The translations under genes and the position numbers were made by a program. DNA of 64,000 bases, taken from contig NZ_JAGHRC010000001.1 of NCBI RefSeq assembly GCF_017743975.1, forward strand, positions 62,001-126,000. Reading direction: 5' to 3'. Below, one piece after another: positions 2,937 to 8,327 of the stretch. Position 1 is the stretch's first letter. Each line of letters opens with the position of its first letter. The DNA comes from Ruegeria sp. R14_0 (GTDB taxonomy: Bacteria > Pseudomonadota > Alphaproteobacteria > Rhodobacterales > Rhodobacteraceae). The notes under the pieces are model-generated. The model searched no databases. It saw only the letters and a list, made by a program, of their open reading frames with translations, and was not told the origin of the DNA.

Positions 2937-3081
2937 TTCTCCGGCCGAGCGTTGGCATGACGTTCGGCCACCACGTGTGGGTGGATTTGCCATCCGGTCC
3001 GGAAAAAATGAATCTGTGGCTTGCGCCCACCAAGATTTCTTGTCTACGCTCGGGGTGAAACGCCAAGATCAGGAGAGCGGA

Positions 3082-4104
3082 TTGGCCATCGGTGCCCTAA
3101 CCCCACCGCAAGATGAAATGCCGCAGCGCGAAGCGTTTGTTGAGTTTCCAGACAACCGATTGTTAATAGACCTTTGCGGCGAATATGACCGCAATCTGAC
3201 GGATATTGAGCACAAGCTATCCGTGCAGATTGTGCGCCGCGGGAATCAGCTGGTAGTCATGGGCGACGAGGACGCTCAGAAACAGGCGATTGAGGTTTTG
3301 CAAGCCCTGTATACCCGTCTGGAAGGCGGGCGCGATGTCGAAGCGGCCGATGTGGATCGCGAGTTGCGTATGGGCGGGTCCGAGACCGATACAGGCTCCC
3401 GCGACGGCGACCAGCTTGAGATGTTCAAGGGCGGCACCGTCGAAATCAAAACGCGCAAAAAGCTGGTCGAGCCGCGCACAGACGCGCAGAAGGCCTATGT
3501 GCAATCCCTGTTCAATAATGAGCTGGCTTTTGGAATCGGCCCGGCCGGTACGGGTAAGACCTATCTGGCCGTGGCCGTTGGTGTCTCGATGTTCATCGGG
3601 GGGCACGTGGACCGGATCATCCTCAGCCGTCCTGCTGTCGAGGCCGGTGAAAAGCTGGGGTATCTGCCCGGTGACATGAAGGACAAAGTCGATCCTTACA
3701 TGCAGCCGCTCTATGACGCGCTGAACGATTTTCTGCCGGGCAAGCAACTGGCGAAGCTGATCGAGGAAAAGCGAATCGAAATCGCTCCGCTGGCCTTTAT
3801 GCGCGGGCGTACTCTGGCAAATGCGTTTGTGGTGCTGGATGAGGCGCAGAACGCGACGACCATGCAGATGAAGATGTTCCTGACGCGTCTGGGTGAAGGC
3901 AGCCGGATGGTGATCACCGGTGACCGCTCGCAAGTTGACCTGCCGCGTGGTGTACAGTCGGGTCTGGCCGATGCTGAAAGGTTGCTGAAGACCATCCCGA
4001 ACATCAGCTTCAACTATTTCACCTCCAAGGACGTGGTGCGTCACCCGCTTGTGGCTGCCATTATCGAGGCGTATGAGGCCGACTCGGGGCGCGAGACTGC
4101 ATAG
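3082..4104 (+). CDS. phoH: PhoH family ATPase (PhoH-like RNA-associated P-loop protein)
   Basis: P-loop ATPase of the PhoH family, thought to act with YbeY in RNA metabolism. A Walker A motif GPAGTGKTY lies near residue 153 and a Walker B VVLDEAQN near residue 253. The N-terminal third has a KH-like fold (DNRLLIDLCGEYDRNL), as in the PhoH/PhoL type. I chose the TTG at 3082: an AGGAG sits 6 nt upstream and it gives 340 residues, normal for the family. An earlier in-frame ATG at 2977 would add an unconserved 35-residue tail. The gene starts a tightly packed run phoH-ybeY-corC-lnt in one direction, with 33 nt to ybeY, which suggests a single transcript. Confidence 0.93.
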   Translation: MAIGALTPPQDEMPQREAFVEFPDNRLLIDLCGEYDRNLTDIEHKLSVQIVRRGNQLVVMGDEDAQKQAIEVLQALYTRLEGGRDVEAADVDRELRMGGSETDTGSRDGDQLEMFKGGTVEIKTRKKLVEPRTDAQKAYVQSLFNNELAFGIGPAGTGKTYLAVAVGVSMFIGGHVDRIILSRPAVEAGEKLGYLPGDMKDKVDPYMQPLYDALNDFLPGKQLAKLIEEKRIEIAPLAFMRGRTLANAFVVLDEAQNATTMQMKMFLTRLGEGSRMVITGDRSQVDLPRGVQSGLADAERLLKTIPNISFNYFTSKDVVRHPLVAAIIEAYEADSGRETA

Positions 4105-5556: not shown

Positions 5557-7049
5557 ACCCTGCACGGGGCTGGCCAATTTGGTTGCGATTACTATCTGCG
5601 GCAGCGCTGGGCGCGGTTGCAGCGTTTGGCCTTGCCCCATTTGGGTTTTGGCCCGCAAGCGTTGCCGCTCTGATCCTGCTGTCTCCGCTGTTTCTGACGA
5701 CCGAGACGCGGGGGCGGGCAGCTTGGCTTGGCTGGGCTTTTGCGACCGGATACTTCGCCCACGCGCTCAGCTGGATTGTCGAGCCGTTTTTTGTTGATGT
5801 ACAACGCCATGGCTGGATGGCCCCGTTTGCGCTGACTTTCATGGCAGGCGGGCTTGCGTTGTTTTGGGCGGTGGCGTTTTGGATCGCACGGCGACCCAAC
5901 GGGCGGCCTGTAACACAAGCGGTTTTTCTGGCGATCTCAATCTCACTGCTGGAATTTGCACGCGGATATGTCCTGACGGGATTTCCCTGGGCTGGCATAG
6001 CGCAGCTTTGGGTCGATACGCCGGTCGCGCAACTTTTGTCGTTGTTCGGGCCATACGGTCTAGGCGCTGTGACCCTGCTGGCGACTTTGCCATTGGGCGC
6101 AGCGCTTTCTGAACGTAGCGGATTTGTCCTGCCGCTGGCCCTGACGGTCGGGGCGACCGCCGTTTCGCTGGCATATGCCGCGTCACGTCCGGTTGTCACT
6201 GACACCGACCATGTTGTTCGGCTTGTTCAGCCGAACGCGCCACAGCATCAGAAATGGGACCCGGATTATGCTCCGCTGTTCTTTGCCCGTCAGCTGGAAT
6301 TCACGGCGGCGACCCCACGGCCTGATCTGATCGTCTGGCCTGAAACCTCTGTTCCGGCGTGGTTGGGCAGCGCGCAGCCCTATCTGGATGCCGTGGCCGA
6401 AGCGGCCCAAGGCACACCAGTTTTCCTTGGCATCCAAAGGGGTGACGGGCCACGGATCTACAACTCTATGATCTACCTCGATGAAACCGGCCAGATGCAG
6501 CAGCTGTACGACAAGCATCACCTTGCCCCGTTCGGAGAATATGTTCCATTTGGCGATGTGATGGCTCAGTTCGGTATCTACGGAATGGCCGCGACCACTG
6601 GCAATGGCTTTAGCGCCGGACCGGGCGCGGCCCTGCTGGATGCGGGGAAACTGGGCATGGCGCTGCCGCTGATCTGTTATGAAGCGGTATTCACACAGGA
6701 TGTCCTGTCGGCCCCCGGCCGGGCTGATTTCCTGCTGCAGATCACCAATGATGCGTGGTTCGGTACCCGCTCGGGGCCGTATCAGCACCTCGCGCAAGCG
6801 CAGATGCGCGCGATTGAGCAAGGCCTGCCCATGATGCGGTCGGCCAATACGGGGGTATCGGCGATGATCGACCCGCTGGGCCGGATTACCGATGCCTTGC
6901 CGTTGGGGCAGGCGGGCTTTGTCGACGCCAATTTACCCGCGCCTCTGGCTTTGACCGTCTACGCGCGGATTGGGGATTTCCCTGTTTTTGTTCTGCTTGT
7001 CGCCATGTTTTTGCTGCTTTGGCGCAACGTTTCACAGCGGCAACACTAG
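5553..7049 (+). CDS. lnt: Apolipoprotein N-acyltransferase
   Basis: Inner-membrane enzyme that adds the third acyl chain to the N-terminal Cys of bacterial lipoproteins. It has 498 residues: a multi-spanning N-terminal membrane part (to about residue 200), a periplasmic nitrilase domain and a final membrane helix (FPVFVLLVAMFLLLW). The catalytic triad is visible: Glu264 in VWPETSVP, Lys321 in YDKHHLAPFGEYVPF and Cys375 in LICYEAVF, equivalent to E. coli Glu267, Lys335 and Cys387. The start overlaps the preceding stop in ATGA. It ends the phoH-ybeY-corC-lnt run; the metK promoter lies just downstream. Confidence 0.96.
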   Translation: MNPARGWPIWLRLLSAAALGAVAAFGLAPFGFWPASVAALILLSPLFLTTETRGRAAWLGWAFATGYFAHALSWIVEPFFVDVQRHGWMAPFALTFMAGGLALFWAVAFWIARRPNGRPVTQAVFLAISISLLEFARGYVLTGFPWAGIAQLWVDTPVAQLLSLFGPYGLGAVTLLATLPLGAALSERSGFVLPLALTVGATAVSLAYAASRPVVTDTDHVVRLVQPNAPQHQKWDPDYAPLFFARQLEFTAATPRPDLIVWPETSVPAWLGSAQPYLDAVAEAAQGTPVFLGIQRGDGPRIYNSMIYLDETGQMQQLYDKHHLAPFGEYVPFGDVMAQFGIYGMAATTGNGFSAGPGAALLDAGKLGMALPLICYEAVFTQDVLSAPGRADFLLQITNDAWFGTRSGPYQHLAQAQMRAIEQGLPMMRSANTGVSAMIDPLGRITDALPLGQAGFVDANLPAPLALTVYARIGDFPVFVLLVAMFLLLWRNVSQRQH

Positions 7050-7056
7050 TTTCGGA

Positions 7057-7085
7057 TTGACGCTGTGTTTCAGGCTGCGTATCCG
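7057..7085 (+). promoter_or_regulatory. Predicted sigma-70 type promoter of metK
   Basis: A TTGACG at 7057-7062 and a TATCCG at 7080-7085 are separated by exactly 17 nt. The expected transcription start, about 7 nt after the -10 hexamer, falls near 7092, only a few bases before the riboswitch aptamer begins at 7097. This fit with an aptamer that needs little 5' leader raises confidence, although the -10 hexamer itself is a weak match. Confidence 0.5.
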
Positions 7086-7096
7086 GTGGCATGCCC

Positions 7097-7140
7097 GTCA
7101 CAACGGCTTCCTGACGTGATGGGAGAAACTTAATGGAGCA
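7097..7140 (+). ncRNA. SAM/SAH riboswitch controlling metK translation
   Basis: A short leader aptamer of the SAM/SAH class, known from Rhodobacterales metK leaders. Stem P1 forms between GUCAC (7097-7101) and GUGAU (7116-7120). The loop holds the conserved AACGGCUUCCUGACG, and after a short linker comes AUGGAGCA (7133-7140). The GCUUCC of the loop (7106-7111) pairs with GGAGC (7135-7139) as a pseudoknot. That GGAG is also the Shine-Dalgarno of metK, 7 nt before its ATG. Ligand binding stabilises the pseudoknot and hides the ribosome site, so high SAM (or SAH) should lower MetK synthesis. I recognise the conserved sequence closely; the linker of about 12 nt is variable in the class. Confidence 0.93.
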
Positions 7141-7145
7141 CATTT

Positions 7146-8327
7146 ATGTCCCGACAGAACTACACTTTTACTTCGGAATCCGTTTCCGAAGGACACCCGG
7201 ATAAGGTTTGTGACCGCATTTCCGACGCCGTACTTGACGCATTTCTGAATGAAGAACCCGAAGCGCGCGTGGCGTGCGAAACCTTTGCAACGACCAATCG
7301 TGTCGTCATAGGTGGCGAAGTAGGTCTGTCTGATCAGGACAAGCTGCACGACTACATGGGCCGCATCGAAGAGATCGCCCGCGCTTGTGTAAAAGATATC
7401 GGTTACGAGCAGGACAAGTTCCACCACGAAACCGTCGAGGTGACGAATCTGCTGCATGAGCAGTCCGCCCATATCGCACAAGGCGTGGATGCGGCCGCTG
7501 ACAAGGACGAAGGTGCCGGTGACCAGGGCATCATGTTCGGCTACGCGACAACGGAAACGCCTGCTTTGATGCCGGCTCCGATCCAGTATTCACACGCGAT
7601 TCTGCGCCGCCTCGCCGAAGTGCGCAAAAATGGTAACGAACCCGCACTTGGCCCGGACGCCAAGTCGCAACTGTCTGTCGTCTACCGCGATGGTAAGCCC
7701 GTCGGTGTCAGTTCGATCGTTCTGTCGACGCAGCACCTGGACGAAGCCCTGAGCTCGGCCGATATTCGTGCGATTGTTGAGCCCTACATCCGGGAAACTC
7801 TGCCTGAAGGCTGGTTGACCAATGAAACGGAATGGCACGTGAACCCAACGGGTAAGTTTGTGATCGGCGGCCCTGACGGCGACGCTGGCCTGACCGGGCG
7901 GAAGATCATTGTCGACACCTATGGTGGCGCCGCGCCGCACGGTGGCGGAGCGTTTTCGGGCAAAGACCCGACCAAGGTGGACCGGTCTGCTGCCTATGCC
8001 GCCCGTTACCTGGCCAAGAACGTCGTCGCCGCAGGTATGGCAGAACGCTGCACCATCCAGCTGAGCTATGCAATTGGCGTGTCCAAACCGTTGTCGATCT
8101 ATGCAGACGCACACGGAACCGGCGAAATCTCGAACGCTGCAATCGAGAATGCCGTTGGTCAGGTGATGGACCTGACCCCGCGCGGCATTCGCGAACACTT
8201 GCAGCTGAACAAGCCAATCTATCAGCGTACCGCAGCCTATGGCCACTTTGGTCGCGACCCGGAAGCTGATGGCGGGTTCAGCTGGGAGCGTACCGATCTG
8301 GCAGATGCGCTGAAAGCAGCCGTCTGA
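7146..8327 (+). CDS. metK: S-adenosylmethionine synthetase
   Basis: Makes SAM from methionine and ATP, supplying MiaB, TrmB and other methyltransferases. At 393 residues it is full length. Family motifs are present: [16 protein letters not shown] near residue 17 (ATP/metal binding), [12 protein letters not shown] near residue 120 and [19 protein letters not shown] near residue 262. It begins [13 protein letters not shown]. Translation is governed by the leader riboswitch whose pseudoknot includes its ribosome-binding site. A strong intrinsic terminator follows, so the gene forms its own transcription unit. Confidence 0.98.

Follow-up and report, generated by a model that had tools for sequence, protein, structure and literature searches.

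Between lnt and metK of Ruegeria sp. R14_0 lies a short stretch of DNA, which raises the question of whether it carries a regulatory RNA for metK and, if so, of which kind. In the 64-kb stretch analyzed here (64,000 nucleotides, referred to as the window), lnt (TIGR00546) ends at position 7049, and metK, coding for a methionine adenosyltransferase of 393 amino acids, occupies 7146-8327 on the + strand, as do all leader features described below (TIGR01034, 499.8 bits, with a cut-off of 309.4). Promoter and leader fit within the 96 bp from the lnt stop to the metK start (7050-7145). An Rfam scan of the whole window yielded a full-length match to RF01727 (SAM-SAH; model positions 1-49 of 49) at 7092-7140 on the + strand, with 59.3 bits (E value of 2.4e-10) compared to a gathering score of 40 bits. 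This was the sole match, with no second Rfam family reaching its gathering threshold in the window. The covariance-model search proposed in the original prediction was thus positive, and the description of the aptamer as complete and nearly consensus held, with identity to the family consensus at model positions 8-27. The gene named as the target, metK, lies in the same orientation. Judged by its sequence, the element is an ordinary, complete SAM/SAH riboswitch of an already known kind, in the arrangement usual for the family.

The anatomy of the leader follows this assignment closely. The 5' arm (CCGUCAC, 7095-7101) and the 3' arm (GUGAUGG, 7116-7122) of helix P1 are defined by the RF01727 alignment, the minimum-free-energy (MFE) fold, and pair changes among relatives; 7094-7123 is a possible extra pair, as the MFE fold pairs 7094-7101 with 7116-7123. 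The predicted pseudoknot loop strand, GCUUCC with one U unpaired (7106-7111), consists of near-invariant bases and was assigned with the help of PMC7367207. It is complementary to GGAGC (7135-7139), the strand with the metK Shine-Dalgarno (SD) sequence, which is placed by sequence, RF01727 alignment, and locus comparison; the predicted overlap of pseudoknot and SD is therefore borne out at the level of complementarity. GGAG is separated from the metK ATG by seven bases (7139-7145) and the end of the aptamer model by five, placing the aptamer directly upstream of metK. The linker between P1 and the pseudoknot helix spans 12 nt (7123-7134), a length shared by 44/54 loci of the genus, within a range of 11 to 17 nt among the 135 loci compared below. 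The length of about 12 nt given earlier was correct, but the coordinates 7121-7132 were two bases off, since 7121-7122 belong to P1 (7095-7101 pairs with 7116-7122). The suggested comparison of this linker with a solved structure proved not to be feasible, because the crystal construct, as described in PMC7367207, omits the linker except for its last bases. From the same published structure, read with an inferred numbering offset, the 3' end of the linker probably lies near the ligand. For a 57-nt leader, P1 is the predicted fold, with an equally good fold in just 3 of 200 shuffles. The 72-nt and 92-nt leaders are not unusually stable, given that 21 and 22 of 200 shuffles, respectively, matched them, and the SD region joins weak local hairpins in the predicted folds.

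We compared the element over 135 loci, comprising 54 from the genus, the 30 best-scoring from the family, another 16 with high scores, 4 from the class search, 30 that are mainly the weakest (including one in genome G483), and a second copy in G483. This is a nonrandom sample covering part of the 255 matching family genomes, and it leans toward the expected structure, as the same RF01727 model served to find the loci and anchor sequences to position them. MetK was detected by tblastn in 135/135 loci and Lnt on the same stretch in 133/135. All seven P1 pairs (model 4-31 to 10-25) keep standard pairing in most loci (121 to 135 of 135, depending on the pair), with nonstandard combinations in 14/135 at pair 4-31, in 10/135 at 6-29, and in fewer at the others. 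Six of the seven show changes on both sides, so that P1 has compensatory changes among these loci; pair 5-30, for example, is CG in 74, TG in 29, TA in 23, and GC in 5 loci, and pair 7-28 is TA in 61, CG in 44, TG in 24, and GC in 3. The core, by contrast, is nearly unchanged among these loci. Model pair 11-24 is A.C in 135/135 loci and 12-23 is A.G or A.A, whereas 134/135 loci have CG at 13-22; this pattern fits the extended P1 described in PMC10516623, with one Watson-Crick pair and two pairs of other types. Each pseudoknot loop base is identical in at least 134/135 loci, and the loop and SD strands are complementary in 134 to 135 of 135, although the parser required GGAG followed by C or T. 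The only compensatory change, from G-C to A-U at model pair 15-48, occurs in 1/135 loci (L089). Covariation thus says almost nothing for the pseudoknot, since its strands hardly vary. P1 is supported by covariation here, and the proposed pseudoknot rests on published structures of relatives.

A general σ70 consensus scan of 6900-7400 listed no promoter; we assessed the promoter by comparison over relatives. The -35 element TTGACG (7057-7062), read from the sequence, and the -10 element TATCCG (7080-7085), a weak match that has only TAT in common with TATAAT, are separated by 17 nt. TTGAC starts 34 to 35 nt before model position 1 in 54/54 genus loci, compared to its occurrence anywhere between -45 and -25 in 2.9% of dinucleotide-shuffled upstream stretches, and column counts place TAT exactly 17 nt after TTGACN in 54/54. 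These loci share ancestry, so they do not amount to 54 independent observations. In other genera of the family, TTGAC is present within -45 to -25 in 67/80 loci and absent in 13/80 (2.1% in shuffles); its placement is less regular there (-45 to -33), and automatic choice of a -10 element gave mixed hexamers and spacers, so that the -10 element is established for the genus only. The promoter with 17-nt spacing claimed ahead of the aptamer is therefore present at its position, conserved in the genus, and weak in its -10 element. It predicts a transcript start at about 7091-7093, a few bases before the aptamer. A terminator-like site at 6971-6984 was discarded; it lies inside lnt, and 0.9 such sites are expected by chance.

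Taken with the RF01727 score, the anatomy, the conserved promoter, the covariation in P1, and the metK target observed here, the leader is almost certainly a riboswitch of the SAM/SAH class (RF01727) through which metK translation is repressed by feedback, where ligand binding, pseudoknot formation, and the direction of switching are inferred from published work on relatives. The transcript would begin a few bases ahead of the aptamer. At low ligand levels, it would fold into the P1 stem-loop and leave GGAG free, allowing ribosomes to load and MetK to be made. SAM (or SAH) would bind where P1 meets the pseudoknot helix and stabilize the pairing of GCUUCC (7106-7111) with GGAGC (7135-7139), and the pseudoknot would then hide the SD sequence and lower MetK synthesis. 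Binding, structure, and a translational model have been published for the family (PMC2864571, PMC7367207, PMC10516623), with repression of translation on ligand binding as the model in PMC7367207 and PMC10516623. The off-switch logic of the original prediction agrees with this family model as given in PMC7367207. As the proposed switch acts on translation, it would presumably also act on any RNA that reads through from lnt.

Such read-through RNA could also offer a different way of silencing metK, in which the promoter spacer (UGUGUUUCA, 7064-7072) would pair with the SD region (7134-7142) independently of ligand. This pairing does appear in the MFE fold of 7057-7148 (92 nt), and its duplex energy of -10.9 in the window is reached by just 5/100 spacer shuffles. 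Only 3/54 genus loci do as well, however (at most 5/100 shuffles reaching the observed energy), and the spacer-SD energy averaged over the genus is less favorable than for shuffled spacers (-5.6 versus -6.6). Since both results show that the helix is not conserved across the genus, we rejected sequestration of the SD by the spacer and consider this explanation extremely unlikely. Scarcely better are the prospects of an internal AUG at 7133-7135 (model 42-44) acting as a decoy start in the ligand-adjacent linker, whose 23-codon overlapping frame would compete with metK while the ligand shifts initiation. The AUG is found in 53/54 genus loci, in all of these at the identical frame offset to metK and in 47/53 with SD-like purines upstream, and also in 47/81 other loci. 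However, those purines overlap P1, the frame varies from 8 to 54 codons within the genus (23 in 35/53), and 34/81 loci outside the genus have ACG, TTG, TCG, or other triplets instead. Where the AUG does occur outside the genus, neither its frame relative to metK (offsets 0/1/2 in 10/15/22 of 47 loci) nor the length of the frame (5 to 398 codons) is kept, arguing against a conserved start. Its conservation may instead be explained by its position, which adjoins the ligand in the structure of PMC7367207 under the same inferred numbering. We regard the decoy start as very improbable.

That the window might hold a degenerate relic that has lost binding is an idea to which we give practically no weight. 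Degenerate copies do exist elsewhere (L135 and L162, described below), but the relic reading finds no support within the window, where the copy scores 59.3 bits and matches the consensus at model positions 8-27.

Only one RF01727 copy was found in the source genome. Across wider sets, matches occurred in 54/54 genomes searched from the genus (Ruegeria), in 255/295 family genomes (250 above the cut-off), in 269/292 genomes of the order sample (266 above the cut-off), and in 5/385 of the class sample, where all five, the source genome included, belong to its family. Stricter filters applied to searches over more than 40 genomes, so weak copies may have escaped them. Among the control genomes, 0/14 matched RF01727 in the genome search, and none did in the genus, family, order, and class searches. 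Ruegeria, which we take to be a member of the Rhodobacterales, thus falls within the host group of RF01727. That the class occurs ahead of metK in Rhodobacterales has already been published (PMC7367207, PMC4239095, PMC2864571), and PMC4239095 reports it in 13/15 Rhodobacterales genomes. A pattern scan of viral contigs for the exact aptamer core, which core variants could escape, returned 0 stretches, and carriage by phages was dropped as a candidate on that scan. A search of genome contigs for 48 bases of the leader in the window gave 0 matches; the contig set possibly leaves out very near genomes.

We also examined 30 genomes without an RF01727 match, picked from the family and order-sample lists. 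All 30 contain MetK, and in 27/30 the 190 bases preceding the conserved MetK motif contain no 16-base core (with up to 5 substitutions). Two others, L176 and L177, have chance-like core matches with 5 substitutions. At L162, a plausible degenerate aptamer precedes metK (about 1443-1496); its core has 5 substitutions, it keeps GGCTTCCTG and CGGAGCG, and its noncanonical P1 extension is, by eye, apparently replaced by G-C/G-U pairs. The L162 genome, the one genome representing its genus, has no Rfam match. In 13/30 (L180-L190, L168, and L178), metK lies closely behind a gene with a GPFKxxHYRY-type end, and L171 has a similar gene order by eye. This upstream gene was confirmed as ahcY in L180 (TIGR00936), and the other 12 assignments rest on the motif. 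Eleven of the 13 ahcY-like-metK genomes belong to a single genus (g300), with MetK 56 to 58% identical to that of the window, and other g300 species carry the riboswitch (e.g., G460, G780, and G909). This suggests that the riboswitch-metK unit was replaced by an ahcY-metK operon in these genomes. Among 138 other loci checked, the ahcY-like-metK order was found only in L191, where the riboswitch is kept between the ahcY-like gene and metK. The genome of L191 (G810, also containing L193) carries metK twice; both copies share 85% identity with that of the window, and both have a SAM/SAH aptamer. In G483, the second copy (L135, about 3001-3125) is partial; its aptamer scores 39.7 bits, just below the cut-off, and has C instead of G at model position 22, ATT takes the place of the metK ATG, and the match to metK covers only 24 codons.

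The closest known system is the SAM/SAH riboswitch RF01727 itself (Weinberg and others 2010; SK209-52 RNA), with which the window element shares the model match, the core sequence, the SD-containing pseudoknot strand, the metK target, and the Rhodobacterales host as described in PMC7367207 and PMC2864571. We found no essential difference. At model position 42, the window has A, whereas the published crystal RNA has U44, if the correspondence taken from the numbering offset holds. SAM-II (SAM_alpha, RF00521) is likewise a SAM-sensing leader RNA with a pseudoknot, and in that resembles SAM/SAH. It is a different family, however, and the window element matches only RF01727 at the gathering threshold. 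The source genome also has a SAM_alpha match of 55 bits (G000:C20:118356-118433, L195), and a metA example of SAM-II is described in PMC9373788. The SAH riboswitch RF01057 senses SAH, as the SAM/SAH class does; a search of the source genome with RF01057 gave no match, and since the control genomes gave none either, this does not establish its absence. We also considered cis93, an antisense small RNA that PMC4809877 describes for a SAM synthase gene (SPOA0011) of R. pomeroyi.

The general picture of the family is unchanged by this locus, which is nothing novel in kind. Its contribution is a further genome of this bacterial family in which SAM synthesis would be under feedback control by a riboswitch, together with a conserved promoter expected to set the transcript start at the aptamer, which makes the locus a compact natural construct for reporter assays.
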